53,240 nt of DNA from Bacillota bacterium (GTDB taxonomy: Bacteria; Bacillota; UBA4882; UBA10575), in the NCBI GenBank assembly GCA_012735135.1, contig JAAYHY010000074.1:1-53240 (forward strand), written 5' to 3'. Position numbers and translations under genes: made by a program. The notes beneath the pieces are model-generated. The model was not told where the DNA came from. It saw only the letters and a program-made list of their open reading frames with translations, and did no database searches. Positions within the stretch are counted from its first letter, which is position 1, and each line of letters opens with the position of its first letter. Shown here one piece after another: positions 35,907 to 53,015 of this stretch.

Positions 35907-36392
35907 TTAAATAAAGAGTTGAATCCGGGCTTCCTTTGCCAACGTGAGAAAAGTGGTGACCTCGCCAACGGTCAGATGTTCATACTTGATCAACTCCGTT
36001 TCCTTGATCCCAAGGATCTCCATGGTACCCCGGCAGGCGATAAAGTGGACCTCCCGTTCCATCGCCATCTTCAGGAGTTGGCCGACGGTTTCTGTTTGGC
36101 GGGAACGGATCAATTTATTCATCAGCCGCGCCCCGAGGCCGCCGAAGTTCATTTTGGAGAGGCCCAGCCGATCGGGGCCGACGGGCAAAAGAAGCTTAAA
36201 GAGGTGGGCCAAGGGATTGGGGTCCCGGCCTCTTTCTGCGCGCAGGAGGGCAAGCCCCCAGAAGGTAAAGAAGATGTGGGCGGTAAATCCTTCTCCTGCG
36301 GCCGTCCAGGCCAGGGCTAACGCGGAAAGCGCTTTGTCCAGATCCCCGCTGAAAAGAATGATACAGATGGCAGGTTTGTCTTGTGCCGCCAT
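35907..36392 (-). CDS. DsrE/DsrF/DrsH-like family protein
   Basis: CIILFSGDLDKALSALALAWTAAGEGFTAHIFFTFWGLALL ... EVHFIACRGTMEILGIKETELI. Confidence 0.8.
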   Translation of the reverse strand: MAAQDKPAICIILFSGDLDKALSALALAWTAAGEGFTAHIFFTFWGLALLRAERGRDPNPLAHLFKLLLPVGPDRLGLSKMNFGGLGARLMNKLIRSRQTETVGQLLKMAMEREVHFIACRGTMEILGIKETELIKYEHLTVGEVTTFLTLAKEARIQLFI

Positions 36393-36475
36393 GGGTAACC
36401 TCCTTTCGCAAAGCGGTAACAATAAAAAGTAGAATGGCGGGCAGGATTACTGTTAGTCTGCCCCGAAAACTAATT

Positions 36476-37618
36476 ATGAACCAACCAAAGGCGAAAAGGG
36501 AACGACGCTACCGGTTGGGGCAAGCTAAGATCAAAAGCGGCCGACAGGAAAGACGAGGAAAGAAGGAGTTATCGTTGATTGCGTATTATGTGGACAACTC
36601 TATTCATCAGATCCCTTCATTCATTTATATCGCCAAAGTTCTGGGGGGACCGGTCCTCACCGACGGGCCGGATGCCATCCGGATCCTGCACCAAGATTTC
36701 CCCGAAGTGCGGGCGGAGTTTTACGCCACCCGGGCCGAATTACAACGGAGGTTGGCGGAACTGCGACCGGAGGCCATCATCCAACCTGATTATTCTAAAG
36801 CTTATTTAAATGTGGATTTTGAAACCGCCCATATTCAGGTCTTCCACGGAACTTCCGATAAAACTTATGGGTATAGCGGTAAAGTCCGGGATTATGACCT
36901 CCTTTTGCTCCCGGGCGAACGGGCTTACCGGACGATGGCGGCGGCTTCCCTGCTGACGGAGGAGAATTACGCCATTGTTGGCTATCCAAAAACCGACCGG
37001 GTTTTCAACGGGGAATTTAACCGGGAGGAGACCTTGGAGCGCCTGGGCCTCGATCCGGCTTTACCCACGGTTTTATATGCGCCCACTTGGCAAGATAGTA
37101 AATTCAATACCAGCCTCCCCAAATATGGCGCGGAGGTCCTTTCCGGGCTACCGGAGGGATATAACTTGATTGTGAAACTCCATCCCAACACCAAACGGTA
37201 TGACCGGCGCAATTACAGCATGGTGGAGAGGCTGGCCGGCCAAAACCCCAGGATCAAATTGCTGGGTTATGAATACGATGTCATTCCGACGATGGCGGGG
37301 GCCGATCTTTTGATTGCCGATATTTCCTCAGTCTCCCATGAATTTCTCTGTTTCGACCGGCCCTTGGTCTTTCTCGACCCCCGTCCCTTGCCCTTTGGCA
37401 AACGGAAGACCTGGGTTTGGCAGTGCGGGCCTGTGGTGAAGCGCCGGGGCCAAGTCTGGTCGACAGTGAAAGCGGCTTTGGCCCGGCCGGAAGCCTACGC
37501 GGAGGAACGCCGGAGGGCCCGGGAAGAGATCTTCTATAAACCTGATGGGCACGCCGCCGAACGGGCGGCGGAAGCCATCCGCAATTTCTTAGAGCAAAGA
37601 AGGAAAGGACAGGCTTGA
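36476..37618 (+). CDS. CDP-glycerol glycerophosphotransferase-like protein
   Basis: HIQVFHGTSDKTYGYSGKVRDYDLLLLPGERAYR, VLYAPTWQDSKFNTSL, IVKLHPNTKRYD, ADLLIADISSVSHEFLCFDRPLVFLDPR; start uncertain (TTG near 36574 also plausible). Confidence 0.78.
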   Translation: MNQPKAKRERRYRLGQAKIKSGRQERRGKKELSLIAYYVDNSIHQIPSFIYIAKVLGGPVLTDGPDAIRILHQDFPEVRAEFYATRAELQRRLAELRPEAIIQPDYSKAYLNVDFETAHIQVFHGTSDKTYGYSGKVRDYDLLLLPGERAYRTMAAASLLTEENYAIVGYPKTDRVFNGEFNREETLERLGLDPALPTVLYAPTWQDSKFNTSLPKYGAEVLSGLPEGYNLIVKLHPNTKRYDRRNYSMVERLAGQNPRIKLLGYEYDVIPTMAGADLLIADISSVSHEFLCFDRPLVFLDPRPLPFGKRKTWVWQCGPVVKRRGQVWSTVKAALARPEAYAEERRRAREEIFYKPDGHAAERAAEAIRNFLEQRRKGQA

Positions 37619-37619
37619 T

Positions 37620-39464
37620 TTGGGGAAAACAATGGAGACCAGCAAAGGAACGAAAAGGGAAAACAAAAAACGTATGAGCACCGGTTTCCGGCTCTTTCTT
37701 TACGTTAGACCATACTGGAAGGAATTGATCGGGGCCATCGTGGCCATGGCCCTGGTTTCCCTCGTTAATCTGGCGTTTCCTTACATTTTTGGGAATTACC
37801 TCATTGACCGGGTTTTCAATGGGGGCGGAAATCTAAAACTCTTAAACCTGATTGTGGGAGGCGTTCTTTTTCTCGCTGTCTTTAAAGGGATCTTTTCCTA
37901 TTTCCAACGGTACCTCACCAGTTATTTAGGACAACGGGTCGTGGCCAACCTGCGGGAAGAGGTTTTTCAGCACTTACAAAGGATGTCGGTGGGTTTTTTG
38001 GAGGGGCAGCGGGTTGGCGAGCTGATCGCCAGGATCACCAGTGACGTGGGGCAGATTCAAAATATCGTTTCCTCCGGGTTTATCTCCCTCCTTTCCAATT
38101 TGATTATGTTGATTGGGATCATTACCGCCGTCTTGCTGATTAACTGGCGCTTGGCTTTAATTACCCTCACCGTGTTACCGCTCATTGTTTATGTGGTCTC
38201 TAAAGCCGGCCGCCGGATCCGGGGGATCAGCCACCGGGTTCAGGAGAAGATTGCCGATCTGACGGCGATGCTTCAAGAGACCTTTACCGGGATTCGTGTG
38301 GTAAAGGCTTTTACCATGGAAAAACATGAGGAGAAAAGGTTTGCCCGGGAAAACGAAGCCAATTTTAATGCGAATATGAAGTCGGCGCAAGCCTTGGCTT
38401 TTTTAACCCCGACGGTGGAAATCCTTTATGTGGTGGGACTGGCCCTTGTGCTTTGGTTTGGCGGGCTGGAGGTTTTCTACGGACGGTTAACCACCGGAGG
38501 TTTAGTTACGTTCTTTACCTACATCGGGATGCTCGGAACCCCGATTACCACTCTGACCAACACCTTCAACTCTTTTCAGCAGGCGTTGGCCGGAGCCGAC
38601 CGTTTGTTTGGGATCTTGGATTCCAAAGAAGATTTACAGGATAAACCAAACGCCATTGTGTTGCCGGAAATTAGGGGTGAAGTGGAATTTGCCGATGTCA
38701 GCTTCGGGTACCGCCCGGGCCAAGAGATTCTTTCCGGGATCAATCTTAAGGTGGCGCCCGGTGAGGTCGTGGCCTTGGTGGGGCCCAGCGGGGCCGGGAA
38801 GACCAGTCTGGTTAATTTGATACCCCGTTTTTACGTACCCACCAGGGGGGCGGTGCTGATTGACGGGTATGATGTCCGGGATGTTAAAATAGCCTCCCTT
38901 CGCCGGCAGATCGGCCTGGTCCCCCAGGAGACGATTTTGTTCGGGGTTTCCATTTGGGAGAATATTGCCTACGGGAAACCCGATGCTACGGAGGAGGAGA
39001 TCATTGCTGCGGCAAAGATGGCCAATGCCCACGAGTTCATCTCGGCCCTCCCCGACGGTTATCAAACCCTTGCCGGAGAACGGGGTTCCCAACTTTCCGG
39101 GGGGCAGAAGCAACGGATCGCCATCGCCCGGGCGCTGTTACGGAACCCGCGCATTCTGATTTTAGATGAAGCCACCTCGGCTTTGGACACGGAAGCGGAA
39201 CGGTTGGTGCAGGAAGCCTTGGAGCGGTTATTAAAAGGAAGAACCACTTTTATTATTGCCCATCGTCTCTCCACCGTCCAGGGGGCCGATAAAATCGTGG
39301 TCCTTTCCGGAGGAAAAGTTGTTGAGGTCGGTACCCATGAAGAGTTATTGCGCGCCCATGGTCTCTACGCCAAAATGCATGGCGATGGCCGGATGTTTGG
39401 AAATGACGAAGAGGGGCAAGGTGTGAATGGGAAGGGGGAGAAGGGTGAGCGTGTTGGAGAATGA
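37620..39464 (+). CDS. ABC exporter (fused TM + ATPase), MsbA-like lipid flippase candidate
   Basis: Six-TM exporter domain plus GPSGAGKTSLVNLIPRFY, QLSGGQKQRIAIARALLRNPRILILDEATSALD; next to LPS-type genes. Confidence 0.88.
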   Translation: MGKTMETSKGTKRENKKRMSTGFRLFLYVRPYWKELIGAIVAMALVSLVNLAFPYIFGNYLIDRVFNGGGNLKLLNLIVGGVLFLAVFKGIFSYFQRYLTSYLGQRVVANLREEVFQHLQRMSVGFLEGQRVGELIARITSDVGQIQNIVSSGFISLLSNLIMLIGIITAVLLINWRLALITLTVLPLIVYVVSKAGRRIRGISHRVQEKIADLTAMLQETFTGIRVVKAFTMEKHEEKRFARENEANFNANMKSAQALAFLTPTVEILYVVGLALVLWFGGLEVFYGRLTTGGLVTFFTYIGMLGTPITTLTNTFNSFQQALAGADRLFGILDSKEDLQDKPNAIVLPEIRGEVEFADVSFGYRPGQEILSGINLKVAPGEVVALVGPSGAGKTSLVNLIPRFYVPTRGAVLIDGYDVRDVKIASLRRQIGLVPQETILFGVSIWENIAYGKPDATEEEIIAAAKMANAHEFISALPDGYQTLAGERGSQLSGGQKQRIAIARALLRNPRILILDEATSALDTEAERLVQEALERLLKGRTTFIIAHRLSTVQGADKIVVLSGGKVVEVGTHEELLRAHGLYAKMHGDGRMFGNDEEGQGVNGKGEKGERVGE

Positions 39465-40668
39465 GCAACGCCGGCGGGTGCTCTTGATCAGTAATGGCCA
39501 TGGGGAGGATGAGATCGCCGCTGTATTAGGCGAACAGTTGGCGCAAGTTTCGCCCGAATTTGAACTGCTTGGCTTCCCCCTGGTGGGCGCCGGCCGGGCT
39601 TACGCCGCAAAGGGAATTGATATTCTGATGGCCGCCGAAACGTTGCCCAGTGGGGGCTTTACCCGGAACAGCCTGGGAAATTTCCTGCGGGATGTCAAAG
39701 CGGGACTCTTTCGTCAAATCGGCGCCCAGATTAAAATGAGCCGTCAGGTTAGGCATAGGGTGGATTTGGCGGTCTGTGTCGGCGATGTTTATCTTCTGAC
39801 CTTAGCGGGGCTTTTTTTAAAGCGGCCGCTCTTCTTTCTGCCCACGGCGAAATCCGATTATATTGCGCCCCATCTTTGGATCGAGATCCGGATCATGCGC
39901 CGGTTTTGCCGGCAAATTTTCCCCCGGGATGCGCGGACGGCCGCATCCTTGTCTCGCCATGGCTTGCCCGCCGAATTTGTCGGCAATCTGATGATGGACT
40001 GTCTGTCCTTTCAAAACCCCGCTGCTTTTCGGGGGGAAGAGGGATGGGTCATCCTCCTCCTTCCCGGCAGCCGGGAGGAAGCCTACGCGAATATGAAGGA
40101 TTTGGCCGCGGCGGTGGTGGCTTTGGAAAAATTAGCGGCGGGGCAAGGGACCAAGGAGAACCGCCGTTATCTGGTGGCTTTAGCCGGCGGTTTGCACTTT
40201 AAGGAATTAAGCAAGGCGTTGGGCCCGGATGGTTGGCAAGGAGCGGAACCGGGGCCGGAAGAAGCTGCCAGGGGCATCGTTGGACACCTGGACCGGAAAG
40301 ACGCCGCCGGCGGCTTACGGATCACAATCGCGCAAGGAAGGTTTGGCGATCTCCTCGCCGCCAGTGATCTCGTGATCGGGTTGGCGGGAACCGGGAATGA
40401 ACAAGCTGCGGGATTGGGGAAACCGGTCCTGACTTTTCCGGGCCGGGGAGCCCAATTTACGAAGGTCTTCGCGGAGAGACAAAAAAGGTTGTTGGGGGAT
40501 TCCGTCCGCCTGCTGGTCAGGGAACCGGAGGTGGTGGCCAAGGCCGCCTTGGAGCTGCTGCGTGATCCGGCGGCCCGGGAGCAGATGGGCAAAAGCGGGC
40601 GGGAACGGATGGGCGATCCGGGCGGAGCCCGGAAACTTGCTCTCCGGATCAAGGAATACTTGGCCTAA
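39445..40668 (+). CDS. Lipid-A-disaccharide synthase-related glycosyltransferase
   Basis: LLISNGHGEDEIAAVLGEQL, LLPGSREEAYANMKDLAAAVVAL, VIGLAGTGNEQAAGLGKPVLTFPGRGAQFT; resembles the LpxB-related family, not canonical LpxB. Confidence 0.75.
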   Translation: MSVLENEQRRRVLLISNGHGEDEIAAVLGEQLAQVSPEFELLGFPLVGAGRAYAAKGIDILMAAETLPSGGFTRNSLGNFLRDVKAGLFRQIGAQIKMSRQVRHRVDLAVCVGDVYLLTLAGLFLKRPLFFLPTAKSDYIAPHLWIEIRIMRRFCRQIFPRDARTAASLSRHGLPAEFVGNLMMDCLSFQNPAAFRGEEGWVILLLPGSREEAYANMKDLAAAVVALEKLAAGQGTKENRRYLVALAGGLHFKELSKALGPDGWQGAEPGPEEAARGIVGHLDRKDAAGGLRITIAQGRFGDLLAASDLVIGLAGTGNEQAAGLGKPVLTFPGRGAQFTKVFAERQKRLLGDSVRLLVREPEVVAKAALELLRDPAAREQMGKSGRERMGDPGGARKLALRIKEYLA

Positions 40669-42896: not shown

Positions 42897-43069
42897 TCAT
42901 CCCTTCTGCAATTTATATCATCGGGAATGACAAAACGTACACTCATTATATCATAACTTACAAAAAGGCGAAAGTTTAACAGAAAAGTATCCTGGAGCGG
43001 ATAGACATGAATATCATCATCGGATAAGAAGGACTTTCGCCTCAATCTACTTCGATGGGAGTTGGAAAT

Positions 43070-44362
43070 ATGTTAGAGCCGTTGGATCTTATCATCACCG
43101 TAAACAGTCCGGGCGAAGTCTCCGGATGGTTGAAGCCGGTTGTTCATGCCCTTCAGGACTTCCCATGGACGTACCGGATTACGGTTTTTATCCCGCCGTG
43201 CCCTTTTGCCAGCGGCGCCGAAAGCCGGGTTGTTGAGGAAATTCCCCAAGTAAAGCAGGTGGTCGGTGCGGAAGAGACGGTCCGTTTCATTATCAGCGGG
43301 AAATTACCGGCCAAATTTAACCCGGCAGGAAGGGGGATTGTCCTTTTTTTAGGGGGCGATCTGACTTATGCCGCCTTATTAGCGAAACGCCTCCGGTACC
43401 CGGCGGTCGCGTACACAGAGGGTCTGACCAACTGGGCCCGTTTCTTTGCCCGGTTTGCCATGGCTTACCCTTGGATGGCGGATAAAGTAAAGAAGCCGGC
43501 GGTGAAAAGGAAAACCCAGGTGATTGGGAATATAATGTTAGATGCGGTTAAACCGGAGTATTCGAAAGAAGAGATGAAAAAATTGCTGGGGAATGAGGAG
43601 GCTCCCGGCTTATTGCTGCTTCCCGGAAGCCGCCCGGCCCATTTCCAATATATGCTTGCTTTTTACGTGAAAACAGTAGAAAAAATCAAAGCGCAGATGC
43701 CGTCGCTCACGACGGTGGTGAGTGTTTCGCCCTTTGTGACGGAAGGACAACTAGCGGCTGCCCTTTCCGGCTGGGGGGCTCAGGAATGGGGATTGTCAGC
43801 CACCTACCTTCCAGCAAGGGAAGAAACCTTTGACGCCGGTGGTGCTTTAAAGGCCCTGGGTGAGATTGAAACAGCGGCCGGTGTGCGCATTCCCTGTTTC
43901 CAACATCAGCAGTATGCCTTAATGAACTGGGCGGATTTAGCATTGACGATCCCCGGAACGAATACGGTTGAACTGGCGACGCTGGGTGTGCCGATGGTCG
44001 TCACCATTCCGCTAAACCACCCGGAAGAGATCCCCCTTGAAGGGCTGGCGGGATTGATCGGCGGGCTTCCCCTCTTGGGGAAAGTGCTGAAAAGGAAGTT
44101 AATCCCCAGGTTTCAGGCCAAGATTAAGTTTGCGGCTTGGCCGAACCGGCTGGCCAAAGCACAGATTGTCCCGGAATTAATCGGGAGGATTTACCCCGAC
44201 GAAGTAGCGGAAGTTGCACTCGGGATGTTACAGGATGAATCAGGTCTTGCCCAAATTTCGCAACGGCTCCAAGCCACGGTGGGTGAACCGGGGGCAGCCC
44301 GGCGGTTAATCCATATCCTTGAAGAAGTTATAAGAACCACCTATCACCAAGAGCTCAATTAA
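43070..44362 (+). CDS. LpxB-like glycosyltransferase (second paralog)
   Basis: NSPGEVSGWLKPVVHAL, VLFLGGDLTYAALLAKRL, NIMLDAVKPEY, LLLLPGSRPAHFQYMLAFYV, IPGTNTVELATLGVPMVVTIPLN; similar in layout to LpxB (LPGSR, SGTATLEAALLGVPMVV). Confidence 0.65.
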   Translation: MLEPLDLIITVNSPGEVSGWLKPVVHALQDFPWTYRITVFIPPCPFASGAESRVVEEIPQVKQVVGAEETVRFIISGKLPAKFNPAGRGIVLFLGGDLTYAALLAKRLRYPAVAYTEGLTNWARFFARFAMAYPWMADKVKKPAVKRKTQVIGNIMLDAVKPEYSKEEMKKLLGNEEAPGLLLLPGSRPAHFQYMLAFYVKTVEKIKAQMPSLTTVVSVSPFVTEGQLAAALSGWGAQEWGLSATYLPAREETFDAGGALKALGEIETAAGVRIPCFQHQQYALMNWADLALTIPGTNTVELATLGVPMVVTIPLNHPEEIPLEGLAGLIGGLPLLGKVLKRKLIPRFQAKIKFAAWPNRLAKAQIVPELIGRIYPDEVAEVALGMLQDESGLAQISQRLQATVGEPGAARRLIHILEEVIRTTYHQELN

Positions 44363-44365
44363 TCG

Positions 44366-44394
44366 TGGCTCCGGAAACTTCCGGAGCTGATTTT
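44366..44394 (+). terminator. Rho-independent terminator after the LpxB-like gene
   Basis: GCTCCGGAA-AC-TTCCGGAGC hairpin followed by TGATTTTAT. Confidence 0.65.
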
Positions 44395-44456
44395 ATGTAA
44401 CCAGCTTTATCTACCTGTCTACACAGGAATTACCTTTCTCGGCGCTGCGGAAGATA

Positions 44457-44465
44457 TGCTATAAT
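44457..44465 (+). promoter_or_regulatory. Extended -10 promoter of the 44487 operon
   Basis: TGCTATAAT (TGn-TATAAT) 21 nt before the start codon, after the upstream terminator. Confidence 0.5.
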
Positions 44466-44486
44466 CGTAAACATGGAGGAGATATT

Positions 44487-46946
44487 ATGTTAAGCATCTT
44501 CCGCGACGGCTTTCTGCATGATTTATTAATCTGGTTTATAGTCAGTGTTTTATTGGCTTCTCTGGTGGCGGCCGGGGTGGGCTTGGTTGCCGATACCTAT
44601 TTTGCCCGGACGGTAGATGGCTTAATTGGTGATCAAGGGGAATATGATCTGCTCTTTCAAGTCCGCACCGATTTGAAAGAAACGGCGGTGGCGCGGATCC
44701 GGGAGATTGTTCAGGAGAAAGTGCCCGGTTCCACCGTGAAGGTGGGGGTCAGCGTGGCCGGCAAAACGGCGGTCTTTGTTGGCTTGGCGCCCAAATACCG
44801 GACGAAAGCGGTGTATACCAATTTGGATTACTACTTCCGTGATATCCCGGGGAGCGGCGGCTTCAGTCTGATGACCGAACCCCGGTTGACTCTATCGGCG
44901 TTCCCGGGTAACGTGGCCGATCTTTTGATCCGGGAAGCCGAACGGATTCCCGGTGTTCGTTTTGCCTTCCGGGACGGGGGCAGTATCGCGGTGATTCTGG
45001 AAAAAGCCACCAAGATGAAGACGGTCCAAACCGCGCTGGAAAATCTCTTGGCCGGCTATTCTTTGTTGGAAATCCGGTTTCCGGTCGGGTATCAAGTGGA
45101 GAACCCGGTTGAAGCGGGGCGTAATTTAGCCGAAGTTTTAGCCGGCAAAGGCGGTATCTCGCTGATTCGTAATGTTACCTCCGGGAAGAGCAGCGATGAC
45201 CAAGAAGCGCTGATGCTGACCATGGCCGAACTGAAACGGTTTCTCCTTTCCTACGCCGGACAGGTGAAAGTAATCCCGGCCCATGGGGTAAAGCTCCGGC
45301 CGGGGGATCAGTTGGTTCTCTTTACTGACCAGGAAAATCCGGGCGCCTCCGGCGAAAAGGTCCATGCCGACGATGTGATTGTGAAGATTACCTCTGAAGA
45401 GCAGGACGGGGCCCTGGCGGGCCTCATTATCCAGGGCGATTCGGCCACCTTTACCCAGGCGGCCGGCCGCTTGCTGGGTGAAGACCAAAAGACCGGAGCG
45501 GTCGTGGCGACCGTGCTGATCAATAGTCCCAAACAACAACTGGCGGCGGCGTTGGATGAAGCCATTAGTTTCCTTAGCCAATTTAATTCCTGGCAAGAGT
45601 TGCCGTCCCAAGCCCGGCAAGTGCTTACGGCGGCCGAAACCATTCAGGCCGCGTTAAACAGTATAAACGGGATGGGGGCGGACCAAGCCGATCTGGAGAA
45701 AATCCGGAACCTTTCGGCGCTGCTAACGGGGACCGGTAATGAGCTTCAGAGGATGGCGGATCATTTAACCCGGCTACGCTGGGTTGAAACCCAACTGGAG
45801 AAGGCCATTGACGGGTTGGAAGGAATGCAAGTCATTACCCGGTTAGGCTTTATCCCCCGGAATTTAGGTTATTTCGGGGATTTAGGGGAAAAGGTGGGCC
45901 TCTTGGACGAAGAGCTCCAAAAATTGGTGGCGGATTTAAGGAGAAAAGCGCAGGTCCTTGATGATTTTATTAACCGCTTTAATCCGCTGGTCCAGACTTT
46001 ATTAGCTTGGGAAAACAAAACCCGGAACCTGGTTGGGCAGTTGGATCAGATGGAGACCCTGCTCGGCGGGGGCGGAAACGCCTTCCAAACGCTGGCGGAG
46101 CTCGTGGGGGTCACTGATGATAGTTTGCGGCAATTTGCCCAGTTTGACTTTGCCGCATTACGGGAGGGGCTCGCACCGCTGGAAGCCGGCTTTGATGAAT
46201 TGCAGGCCAATAACTTAATGTTGATCATCGGGGAGATGGAGAAGATCAAAGCTTCCCTGCCCAAACTGAAGGATGAAGAGATTAGCAAGACCATCACTTT
46301 ACTCGACCGTTATCTGGGTGGAGAAACCATCTCCGGCGAAAAGGTGGAACTTTTTGTGAACGCCGGGTATAACGAGGCTGAAGTGACCCGGGTGGTTAAT
46401 AACTTCTTCGACGCGGAACAGGTCCGGATTCAGGCGCTACCGGCGGGGGTGCTCCAGCCGGATGTGCGGAACGAAGTCACCCGGTTGCTCGGAGAGGTCC
46501 AAGGGGTAATTGCGGCCCTGGCCGTGATTATTTTGGCAATTTTGATCTTCCTCCAGGACCAGGCGGCGATTCTGGCGATGTTTCACCATTTGGATTTACT
46601 GGTTCCTTACCGGAAGACCAAAAAAGGCAAGGAGGCGGTGCTCACCCGGTTGTTCCCCTGGCTGTACGCTTCGGGGTTGGGGGCGGTTTGGTTATGGACT
46701 ACGATCAAACTGTCCGGCGCCCATATTCCCTATTTTTCCGGCGCTTCCTTTTTGGTTGTGGGCGCCCTGGTCGGTCTTGTTTTCTACCGGATGGCGGAGA
46801 AATTTCACCGTTTGAACCTGGATGAAGTGATTGCCGGTTATGCCCTGGGGTTCAATTTTACCACCGTGATGCGGGAGATTGTGCTTCCGGCCGGCCGTCC
46901 GGGCCTGATGCAGAGACTTAACCGACGGAAGATGGTGATGAAATGA
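44487..46946 (+). CDS. Uncharacterised 819-aa membrane protein; candidate ABC permease with a very large extracytoplasmic domain
   Basis: N-terminal TM (LLIWFIVSVLLASLVAAGVGLVA), ~650-aa mostly helical soluble region, TMs at VIAALAVIILAILIFL, LYASGLGAVWLWTTI, ASFLVVGALVGLVFY, then EAA-like EVIAGYALGFNFTTVMREIVLPAGRPGLM; ATGA overlap with the ATPase gene. Confidence 0.75.
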   Translation: MLSIFRDGFLHDLLIWFIVSVLLASLVAAGVGLVADTYFARTVDGLIGDQGEYDLLFQVRTDLKETAVARIREIVQEKVPGSTVKVGVSVAGKTAVFVGLAPKYRTKAVYTNLDYYFRDIPGSGGFSLMTEPRLTLSAFPGNVADLLIREAERIPGVRFAFRDGGSIAVILEKATKMKTVQTALENLLAGYSLLEIRFPVGYQVENPVEAGRNLAEVLAGKGGISLIRNVTSGKSSDDQEALMLTMAELKRFLLSYAGQVKVIPAHGVKLRPGDQLVLFTDQENPGASGEKVHADDVIVKITSEEQDGALAGLIIQGDSATFTQAAGRLLGEDQKTGAVVATVLINSPKQQLAAALDEAISFLSQFNSWQELPSQARQVLTAAETIQAALNSINGMGADQADLEKIRNLSALLTGTGNELQRMADHLTRLRWVETQLEKAIDGLEGMQVITRLGFIPRNLGYFGDLGEKVGLLDEELQKLVADLRRKAQVLDDFINRFNPLVQTLLAWENKTRNLVGQLDQMETLLGGGGNAFQTLAELVGVTDDSLRQFAQFDFAALREGLAPLEAGFDELQANNLMLIIGEMEKIKASLPKLKDEEISKTITLLDRYLGGETISGEKVELFVNAGYNEAEVTRVVNNFFDAEQVRIQALPAGVLQPDVRNEVTRLLGEVQGVIAALAVIILAILIFLQDQAAILAMFHHLDLLVPYRKTKKGKEAVLTRLFPWLYASGLGAVWLWTTIKLSGAHIPYFSGASFLVVGALVGLVFYRMAEKFHRLNLDEVIAGYALGFNFTTVMREIVLPAGRPGLMQRLNRRKMVMK

Positions 46947-47695
46947 ATACCGTAGAACGCCAACCGCTTTTGAAGATTGAGCGCTTAGAAAAAAGTTACC
47001 AAAAACGCCGGGTTTTGCGAGGAATAAACCTTAATCTTTTTCCCGGGGAGACGATAATAGTTATGGGTCCCAGCGGTTGTGGGAAGTCGACTTTGATCCG
47101 TTGCATTAACCGATTGACCGAACCCGATGCCGGCCGGATCTTTTTTGAGGGGACAGAAGTGACCGGTCTTCCTCTTCCGCAGTTATCAGCCCTGCGCCGC
47201 CGGATTGGTTTTGTTTTTCAACAATTTAACCTGATCCGCCGGTTGAATGTGCTTGAGAATGTTTCCTTTGCCCTCCGGCTTGAAGGACAACCGAGGGAGG
47301 AAGCCGAAGCCAAGGCTTATCAGGCTTTGTCCCGGGTTGGTTTAAAGGAGCGGGCTTTAAATTACCCCCCGGAACTTAGCGGCGGGGAACAACAGCGGGT
47401 CGGGATTGCCCGCGCTTTGGCCTTGGAGCCGCCGCTGATGCTCTGGGATGAGCCAACAGCGGCCCTGGACCCGATCCTGGTCAGCGAAGTGATTGAAATT
47501 ATGGAGGAGTTGGTGCGGAGTAAAGCCACTACGATGTTGGTGGTCACCCATGAAGTGGGGTTTGCCTCCCGGGCGGCCGACCGGATCATCTTTATGGATC
47601 AGGGAAAAATAGTTGAAGAAGGTGCGCCGGCCACCGTTTTGACCGCCCCAAAGTCGGAAATTGGCGAAAAATATAAAAAACTATTAAAAACCTAG
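46943..47695 (+). CDS. ABC transporter ATP-binding protein (polar amino acid/GlnQ type)
   Basis: GPSGCGKSTLIRCINRLTEPDAG, LSGGEQQRVGIARALALEPPLMLWDEPTAALDPILVSEVIEIM, TTMLVVTHEVGFASRAADRIIFMDQGKIVEEG. Confidence 0.92.
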   Translation: MNTVERQPLLKIERLEKSYQKRRVLRGINLNLFPGETIIVMGPSGCGKSTLIRCINRLTEPDAGRIFFEGTEVTGLPLPQLSALRRRIGFVFQQFNLIRRLNVLENVSFALRLEGQPREEAEAKAYQALSRVGLKERALNYPPELSGGEQQRVGIARALALEPPLMLWDEPTAALDPILVSEVIEIMEELVRSKATTMLVVTHEVGFASRAADRIIFMDQGKIVEEGAPATVLTAPKSEIGEKYKKLLKT

Positions 47696-47741
47696 GGGAA
47701 AAATGGTATACTAAACCAGATAATATTTTTGTTTCGGGGGT

Positions 47742-48584
47742 GTGTCTTTGAAAGGGTTTCAGCAAACTTTGCAGAATAAAATTGCTATCAGTGGACAAGC
47801 TCTTCATTCCGGGAAAATGGTGACGATGGAGCTTATTCCCCAACCGGTGGACACTGGGATTCGATTCTGCCGCGTGGATTTACCGAACCGGCCGGCTTTA
47901 CCGGCAAAACCAAGGAACATTATTGACACCACACGCAATATTGCCTTGGGCACGAGCGAGTGGCGGATCCATACGATCGAGCATTTGATGGCGGCTTTGC
48001 ATGGGCTGAAGATTGACAACCTGTTAGTGACGGTGGATGGTCCGGAAATTCCGTTGGGTGACGGCAGCGCCCAATTTTTTGTGGAGAAAATTCGCGAGGC
48101 CGGTCTGGCCGTGCAGGATAAACCAAGAAAAGTACGGAAAATTACCAAACCGGTCTGGGTTGCCGACGGTACCGACCCCCGTTCATATTTGATTGCTTTA
48201 CCCGGGGAGGGCTTCCGGATTAGCTATTGCTTCACTTCCGATCATAAAGTCACCGGTAATCAATTTGCCCAGTACCTGATCACCCCGGAGACTTTCCTGA
48301 AAAACCTGGCCCCCGCCCGGACCATTGCCTTCTGGCGGGAGCTTGAAGCCTTGCGCAAGCAAGGACTGGCGCTGGGCGGCAATATGGAGATTGCGGTGGT
48401 GGTCGGGGAGGAAGGGTATTTGAACCAGTTACGGTTTGCCGATGAGATTGTCCGCCACAAAATCCTTGATCTTTTAGGCGATCTATATCTCCTTGGTCCG
48501 CTGGAAGGAGAGATTATCGGGGTCCGTTCCGGACATAAACTCGATATAGAACTGGCTTTAAAGCTTGAGGACCAATTGGAGTAG
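47742..48584 (+). CDS. lpxC: UDP-3-O-acyl-N-acetylglucosamine deacetylase
   Basis: LQNKIAISGQALHSGKMVTMELIPQPVDTGIRFCRVDL, IHTIEHLMAALHGLKIDNLLVTVDGPEIPLGDGSAQFF, IVRHKILDLLGDLYLLG; GTG start. Confidence 0.96.
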   Translation: MSLKGFQQTLQNKIAISGQALHSGKMVTMELIPQPVDTGIRFCRVDLPNRPALPAKPRNIIDTTRNIALGTSEWRIHTIEHLMAALHGLKIDNLLVTVDGPEIPLGDGSAQFFVEKIREAGLAVQDKPRKVRKITKPVWVADGTDPRSYLIALPGEGFRISYCFTSDHKVTGNQFAQYLITPETFLKNLAPARTIAFWRELEALRKQGLALGGNMEIAVVVGEEGYLNQLRFADEIVRHKILDLLGDLYLLGPLEGEIIGVRSGHKLDIELALKLEDQLE

Positions 48585-51526: not shown

Positions 51527-52306
51527 ATGAAACAAGGCAAATACGTTCAGATTCTTTGCTTGATCCTACTCTTCCTTTTGGCGGTTGCGGCCCCGGGGTG
51601 GGCCGGCGGGCCGATTGACGGCGAGGTAGAGGTGATTGTCCCGGCGCAGGGGTTAACCGAACTCGACTTAAAAACCGAAGTCTATTCTTACCGGGGCTCC
51701 AGCAGGGAGCCGGTCGAAGTTCACCTGGAGAACCCCCCGATGCGCCTCACTGCCTTCCACGTCACCTATGACCAGGGAAAACAGTTTCTCACCGCCGAAG
51801 AAAGGGTGAAGCTGGAAACGGAAAAGCTGGTGGCGACCGGTCCGCTTATGACGCTCACCCCGGAGGAGGTCCGGCTACCAAACGGCGGGGAGATTACCGC
51901 TTTGGGGCCGGAAGCAGAACGACTGGTGGTGAAGGGCGCCTTTGCTTATCAATTTACCGATGAATCTCTGCGGGGGACTGGCGGTTTTTTGTTGGAGGGA
52001 CCCGATTGGATGCTGGAAGGGGAGGATTTTGCCGGTAGTTTACGGGCAGGGGAGTTTACCGCCGACGGCCGGCTCCAATTCCGTTACCGGGATCTATCAG
52101 GGGAAGCGGACAGCATCACCTATCACCAAAAGGAAGGAAGGCTGATCCTTACGGGTTCACCTTTGATCCGTTGGGAAGAAGGGGTTCTTCAGGGCGGGGC
52201 CGACACGGTGATCAGTTATGACCTGGCCGGTGGGCAAGCCAAAGTGGAAGGGCCAACCAAGACCCGGTTTTATCAGGATGGAGGAGTGCATCCCAGTGGC
52301 GATTGA
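51527..52306 (+). CDS. lptA: LptA/OstA-like periplasmic LPS transport protein
   Basis: Signal peptide (MKQGKYVQILCLILLFLLAVAAPGWAGG); jellyroll-like repeats (ADSITYHQKEGRLILTGSPLIRWEEGVLQGGADTVISYDLAGGQAKVEG). Confidence 0.8.
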   Translation: MKQGKYVQILCLILLFLLAVAAPGWAGGPIDGEVEVIVPAQGLTELDLKTEVYSYRGSSREPVEVHLENPPMRLTAFHVTYDQGKQFLTAEERVKLETEKLVATGPLMTLTPEEVRLPNGGEITALGPEAERLVVKGAFAYQFTDESLRGTGGFLLEGPDWMLEGEDFAGSLRAGEFTADGRLQFRYRDLSGEADSITYHQKEGRLILTGSPLIRWEEGVLQGGADTVISYDLAGGQAKVEGPTKTRFYQDGGVHPSGD

Positions 52307-53015
52307 AGTGCGAGGTTTAGTTAAAGAATACGGCCAGCGGCGGGTGGTGGATCAGGTCAGTCTGGAAGTGAACCCGGGGGAAGTGGTGGGCCTCTTGGGA
52401 CCGAACGGCGCCGGGAAGACGACCACCTTTTATATGATCGTTGGTTTGGAACGCCCCCTTACCGGGTGGATTAAAATTGACGGGCATACCGTTACCCATT
52501 TACCCATGCATAAGCGGGCCCGTTACGGAGTGTCCTATTTGGCCCAGGAACCGTCGGTTTTCCGCAAACTGACGGTGGAAGAGAATATCCTGGCCATTTT
52601 GGAATTGGTGATGAAAGATAAAAAACAGCGGATTGAGCGGTGTAACCAACTGCTGGAGGAGTTTCACCTTACCAAGGTGAGAAAACAAAAGGGGTTTATG
52701 CTCTCCGGCGGCGAACGGCGCCGGGTGGAGATTGCCCGGGCTTTAGCCCAGAATCCCCGTTATATCTTACTGGATGAACCCTTTACCGGTGTGGACCCGA
52801 TTGCGGTGGCTGATCTCCAGGATATCGTCAGGGAATTAAAGGAGAAAGGGTTGGGGGTGCTCATCACCGACCACAGCGTCCGGGAGACCCTGGCCATTAC
52901 CGACCGGGCCTATATAATGTACTCCGGGAAGATCCTGGTCTCCGGGGAAGCGCAGGCCATTGCCGAAGATGAAATGGCCCGTAAGTTTTATCTTGGTGAC
53001 CGTTTTAATATGTAA
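52296..53015 (+). CDS. lptB: LPS export ABC transporter ATP-binding protein
   Basis: GLLGPNGAGKTTTFYMIVGLERPLTGWIKIDG, LPMHKRARYGVSYLAQEPSVFRKLTVEENI, LSGGERRRVEIARALAQNPRYILLDEPFTGVDPIAVADLQDIV; GTG start overlapping the lptA stop. Confidence 0.96.
   Translation: MAIEVRGLVKEYGQRRVVDQVSLEVNPGEVVGLLGPNGAGKTTTFYMIVGLERPLTGWIKIDGHTVTHLPMHKRARYGVSYLAQEPSVFRKLTVEENILAILELVMKDKKQRIERCNQLLEEFHLTKVRKQKGFMLSGGERRRVEIARALAQNPRYILLDEPFTGVDPIAVADLQDIVRELKEKGLGVLITDHSVRETLAITDRAYIMYSGKILVSGEAQAIAEDEMARKFYLGDRFNM

Follow-up and report, generated by a model that had tools for sequence, protein, structure and literature searches.

The window analysed here, a 53,240-nucleotide stretch of a Bacillota bacterium genome (assembly GCA_012735135.1, contig JAAYHY010000074.1), carries beside its lipid A genes an apparently uncharacterised gene pair, ECTO-NBD, encoding a membrane protein with a giant ectodomain (ECTO) and an ATP-binding cassette (ABC) ATPase of the GlnQ type (NBD). 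The pair is confined almost only to endospore-formers with a lipopolysaccharide (LPS) outer membrane, monoderm spore-formers lack ECTO, and ECTO has been lost repeatedly, in association with or after the loss of sporulation. We propose, with confidence and doubt about evenly balanced, that ECTO-NBD is an ABC-type machine by which endospore-forming diderm Bacillota re-make or remodel the outer membrane around sporulation, germination and outgrowth.

Distribution and synteny of ECTO-NBD

Genomes were scored for ECTO, LpxC (PF03331) and SpoIVA (PF09547) in samples of 121 Negativicutes, 59 Halanaerobiia and 61 relatives of the window genome including itself; with G056 and G077, which are one and the same, counted once, this gave 240 distinct genomes. 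ECTO was present in all 98 genomes with both LpxC and SpoIVA (40 Negativicutes, 26 Halanaerobiia and 32 window relatives), in 4 of the 111 with LpxC and no SpoIVA, in 2 of the 23 with SpoIVA and no LpxC, and in none of the 8 with neither. As only 4/111 LpxC-only genomes carry ECTO, LPS alone is no predictor of the pair. These four carriers are G018 and G023, both fragmented metagenome-assembled genomes (MAGs), together with G093 and G099. The two carriers lacking LpxC are weak cases, with ECTO at a contig end in G225 and an ECTO-NBD-lptB arrangement in G017 (loci L085/L291), where lptB follows the pair directly and no LpxC was found in a genome that is 95% complete. A preliminary description, made from the window sequence alone, had suggested that the system is specific to diderm Firmicutes. 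The pair is indeed confined to diderms as searched, ECTO being found in 1 of 22 SpoIVA-positive, LpxC-negative genomes in the sample from the window's phylum, but it is not a general diderm feature, as 107 of the 111 LpxC-positive, SpoIVA-negative genomes are without it.

On a single-gene phylogeny of 119 LpxC proteins, 11 changes were counted for ECTO and 12-13 for SpoIVA. When phylogenetically independent pairs were taken from branches with good support, they agreed in 5.8 of 7 cases, with none opposed (p=0.03, conservative). A Pagel-type test of correlated evolution, run from several starts, gave a likelihood ratio of 61.8 (p=1.2e-12), a p-value to be read loosely because the tree rests on one gene and the sampling was non-random; the fitted rate of ECTO loss was approximately 0 with SpoIVA and 14.5 without it.

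The gene order ECTO-NBD-lpxC-fabZ-lpxA is common to Hydrogenispora-type Bacillota, Sporomusa/Pelosinus and Halanaerobiales. In nearly all loci ECTO is followed by an NBD of this type, and lpxC-fabZ-lpxA(-lpxI) lies downstream in most loci with sufficient contig, a few being rearranged. This neighbourhood survey across classes bears out the link to the outer membrane envisaged in the preliminary description. Most of the ECTO-negative Negativicutes examined have an intact bamA-ompH-lpxD-(yjbH)-(lpxL)-lpxC-fabZ-lpxA cluster with a short gap at the site of the pair (86 bp in G074), and in an ECTO-negative member of the Halanaerobiia (G194) the order is lptF, an lptA-like gene and lpxC, the pair being likewise missing.

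Family, topology and coupling loop of ECTO

No family was matched by ECTO in searches of Pfam, NCBIfam and PDB sequences; the single PDB sequence match was spurious, and weak Pfam coiled-coil matches (HMMR_C, ATG17, HOOK and others) were discarded as compositional. The existence of full-length homologs, 86 to 25% identical, indicates that the pair is not a chance occurrence. All 28 relatives sampled at class level had an ECTO homolog, as did several further families of the phylum, and one genome scan returned 71 ECTO loci, all labelled as Bacillota, including Hydrogenispora-type MAGs, Sporomusa, Pelosinus and Halanaerobiales among other lineages. To judge from these searches, ECTO-NBD is an uncharacterised pair and ECTO constitutes a new family. 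This agrees with the preliminary description, since FtsX, MacB and YhgE all failed to give a match over the full length; YhgE/Pip gave no ECTO match in Pfam or NCBIfam, and no LptF/LptG domain was matched in ECTO.

Open reading frames (ORFs), hydropathy and AlphaFold modelling agree on the 819 aa protein with one N-terminal and three C-terminal transmembrane segments (TMs) and the ATGA overlap with the ATPase gene that had been described from the sequence. Strong TMs were indicated by hydropathy at residues 13-31, 671-689 and 747-765, and the AlphaFold model supplied an additional helix at 715-743, giving the 1+3 layout around an ectodomain of ~600-610 aa (508-628 residues across the family). 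The ectodomain is predicted to comprise two tandem alpha/beta units (55-197), a beta domain (259-346), long helices (348-610) and a short alpha/beta unit (619-657). Its earlier characterisation as mostly helical was roughly right, with ~260 of ~610 aa in long helices of 47-62 residues each beside the alpha/beta and beta units. A second AlphaFold model, built with 52 sequences, had a pLDDT of 79 and a pTM of 0.48 (range for the two models 0.42-0.48). Foldseek searches of the PDB with both models gave no match at E<=0.001 and yielded only partial alignments, to coiled-coil structures and to ferredoxin-like domains in tandem.

Walker A, Q-loop, LSGGE signature, Walker B and H-loop motifs are all intact in the NBD. 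Its best NCBIfam model was GlnQ at 250 bits (the equivalog cut-off of 379 was not reached), compared with 193 for FtsE and 178 for LolD, in line with the earlier view that this is a polar-amino-acid-type rather than a LolD/MacB/FtsE-type ATPase. GlnQ, TcyN and PhnC likewise outscored FtsE and LolD for the Sporomusa and Halanaerobiales NBDs, so that the NBD is of the polar amino acid transporter (PAAT) type in 3/3 lineages tested.

The last ~40 residues of ECTO carry the motif [DE]E..AG.[AS]LG.....[IV]MREIVIPAGRPG, near-invariant in 51 members, which resembles the EAA coupling loop of importer permeases; E780, A783, G784, G788, I798, P801, P805 and G806 are kept in 50-51 of the 51 members complete at the loop. 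Comparison using hhalign showed that this loop aligns to the PAAT permease profile with a probability of 87-94 (P 4e-6 to 2e-7), whereas 30 column shuffles gave <=1.2, sugar permeases 4-21 and FtsX profiles 5-56. When Negativicutes were searched with the ECTO profile, the matches beyond homologs were short, located at the EAA region and in ORFs of 220-250 aa; the sequences of 7/7 of those extracted looked like ABC importer permeases, and PF00528 was matched in both of those scanned, at 4.9e-25 and 1.7e-20. PF00528 is also the Pfam family matching most ECTO members (10/33, best 9.3e-5), the best match extending from TM2 to the EAA loop (profile positions 16-111 of 184) and falling under the gathering score. 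No TM follows the loop in 52 ECTO members, with <=26 residues beyond the EAA proline, and the lack of room for one suggests that the remainder of a type I permease is absent. ECTO thus seems to possess a type I permease's coupling end minus its remainder, and this EAA-like C-terminus agrees with the GlnQ-type ATPase; the 30-residue element may reflect either homology or convergence.

Transcription signals and neighbouring genes

The extended -10 promoter and upstream terminator attributed to ECTO in the preliminary description were recovered (Table 1). The ATTACCT box together with the extended -10 TGCTATAAT is kept in the relatives of the window and in several other lineages, and the combined pattern was found upstream of ECTO only, among the loci compared for it. 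The box reads ATTACCT or ATTACAT and is maintained in distant lineages. AGGAATT could be read as sigma-H-like, but this was discounted, as the sequence is not retained in relatives. As described earlier, 46 nt separate the NBD stop codon from the start of lpxC; because lpxC has an extended -10 promoter-like site of its own, ECTO-NBD may form a separate transcription unit. The absence of an adjacent solute-binding protein was also upheld, with no such family in ECTO and lpx and lpt genes as neighbours, among them lptB as a separate gene (52218-53015, 357.6 bits).

Table 1 Features of the ECTO-NBD region (window coordinates)
Feature	Position	Strand	Basis
ECTO, new-family membrane protein with giant ectodomain, 819 aa	44487..46946	+	ORF, homolog and family searches
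TM1, residues 13-31 (model helix 9-47)	44523..44579	+	hydropathy and AlphaFold
Ectodomain, residues 48-659	44628..46463	+	AlphaFold model
TM2, residues 671-689	46497..46553	+	hydropathy and AlphaFold
TM3 helix, residues 715-743	46629..46715	+	AlphaFold; weak by hydropathy
TM4, residues 754-773	46746..46805	+	hydropathy and AlphaFold
EAA-type coupling loop DEVIAGYALGFNFTTVMREIVLPAGRPG, residues 779-806, followed by 13 residues only	46821..46904	+	
NBD, GlnQ/PAAT-type ABC ATPase, 250 aa, intact catalytic motifs	46943..47695	+	ORF, motif reading and NCBIfam
lpxC, conserved neighbour downstream of NBD	47742..48584	+	
Terminator-like hairpin with T-rich tail, 3' of lpxB-like gene	44366..44389	+	10-bp stem, 6 GC pairs
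ECTO promoter region: ATTACCT box 44429-44435, extended -10 TGCTATAAT 44457-44465	44429..44465	+	
Ribosome-binding site GGAGGAG of ECTO	44475..44481	+	sequence; conserved in relatives
Promoter-like lpxC site, TG before TATACT, overlapping NBD 3' end	47684..47712	+	seen in relatives

Elsewhere in the lipid A region of the window, a teichoic-acid-type CDP-glycerol glycerophosphotransferase (36383-37618; PF04464, 4.3e-27) lies directly upstream of an msbA-like gene. The same cluster has two LpxB-type proteins (39427-40668 and 43055-44362), one being a TIGR03492 lipid-A-disaccharide synthase-related protein (329 bits), the other a diverged PF02684 protein. In other genomes, a second ECTO-NBD copy is located outside the lpx cluster in Pelosinus and Sporomusa (L099:9995-13108, L126:4918-8031, L062, L065 and L097), and a second, more distant LpxC paralog occurs in some Sporomusaceae-like genomes (G061, G107, G152, G156 and G164); a paralogous lpxC2 region has also been mentioned (PMC11448272). 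At one Halanaerobiales MAG locus (L071:5842-8970), a 1042-aa LptF-like ORF, which may be LptF fused to another domain, immediately precedes an LptA-like gene and ECTO.

Proposed role and competing explanations

In diderm spore-formers the outer spore membrane derives from the inner membrane and must become an LPS-containing outer membrane at outgrowth (PMC7985256), a remodelling whose mechanism is stated as not known (PMC7985256, citing Tocheva 2011). The lipid A neighbourhood, the dependence on both traits and the ATP-driven coupling end together suggest a machine that works for the outer membrane during the spore cycle. We infer that NBD dimers would dock onto the EAA-like loops that two ECTO subunits present in the cytoplasm, and that the ATP cycle would shift TM2-TM4 and with them the long periplasmic helices, which could extend towards the peptidoglycan and the outer membrane and so span the periplasm. 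This work, on whatever substrate there may be, would be needed when the outer membrane is re-made or remodelled, as in the conversion of the outer spore membrane, with its inner-membrane origin, into an LPS outer membrane. The further claim, that the pair represents a new ABC mechanochemical class combining an importer coupling end with a giant ectodomain and dedicated to this conversion in diderm endospore-formers, is put forward tentatively and is rather doubtful.

Several observations weigh against the proposed spore-cycle machine. The ECTO promoter was judged by eye to be of the sigma-A type, no spore-sigma promoter was seen upstream of ECTO on inspection by eye, and expression may therefore be vegetative; as a marker of sporulation SpoIVA is no more than a proxy, two Negativicutes (G093 and G099) retain the pair without it, and the ECTO model has a low pTM (0.48) with no confident fold match. 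Sigma-A is also used in outgrowth, and such a promoter would be compatible with either outgrowth or vegetative growth. These retentions, the promoter type and the site within the vegetative lpx cluster would fit a vegetative maintenance factor for the outer membrane (handling lipid, LPS or lipoprotein, functionally like Mla or LolCDE), with no direct part in the spore cycle and having become dispensable in lineages that also happened to lose sporulation. We regard this explanation as unlikely, though to be taken seriously: ECTO loss repeatedly follows SpoIVA loss in two classes, 0/98 genomes with LpxC and SpoIVA have lost ECTO, and LPS-bearing non-spore-formers are without the pair while keeping the rest of the cluster.

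An improbable alternative is a type VII ABC mechanotransmitter related to FtsX, MacB or LolE, for instance one controlling peptidoglycan or envelope enzymes in engulfment or outgrowth. ECTO-NBD shares with FtsEX, MacB and LolCDE the 1+3 layout, the large ectodomain after TM1, the separate ATPase and the envelope context, TM1 and TM2 are long helices, and the full ECTO profile aligned weakly to the FtsX C-terminal profile (hhalign probability 56 over 613-765), but with the C-terminal profile this fell to 5-13. The type VII likeness noted in the preliminary description is one of topology only: PF02687 (FtsX) was absent from the window ECTO at E<=1 and did not figure among the families with the most matches across 33 members, ECTO was not among the 11 FtsX matches in the window's own genome, the ATPase is of another subfamily than FtsE or LolD, PF00528 is matched in 10/33 members, the loop behind TM4 aligns to the PAAT EAA loop, and no type VII chain is among the best PDB fold matches. 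The GlnQ/TcyN/PhnC-type ATPase, the EAA-like loop and the partial PF00528 match instead recall PAAT importers (GlnPQ, HisQMP) and would suit a GlnPQ-like importer of amino acids or germinants with its binding domain fused to the permease. This is very improbable, as the loop is terminal and the final part of the permease domain is missing in 52 members, ~600 aa of ectodomain lie between TM1 and TM2, there is neither a solute-binding-protein domain nor a separate such protein, and the pair is tied to lpxC and sporulation, being restricted to diderms with LPS and missing from spore-formers that are monoderm. ECTO does not qualify as a normal importer, and kinship with FtsX, MacB or LolE could not be demonstrated.

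The Mla and LetB systems similarly pair an inner-membrane ATPase with a periplasm-facing protein in diderms, near outer membrane biogenesis genes, but the MCE (MlaD) domain was found neither in the window ECTO nor among the families matched most often across 33 members; in Veillonella, mlaEFD forms a separate operon (PMC10665443). The eLife 2016 survey of the outer membrane locus of diderm Firmicutes listed three other unknown genes syntenic with lpx/bam (COG0816, COG4372/DUF3084 and COG750; PMC5007114). ECTO-NBD is not among the three and occurs almost only in spore-forming diderms, and an earlier mention elsewhere is possible.

Sporulation has a place in ideas about how the outer membrane of Firmicutes arose and was lost (PMC5007114). 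A machine of the kind proposed would be an unusual deployment of an importer-type coupling loop minus the rest of the permease. Kept wherever LPS is combined with endospores and lost once sporulation has gone, the pair would offer a concrete, deletable candidate for the regain of the outer membrane, and may be the first genetic lead on how this membrane is rebuilt after sporulation.
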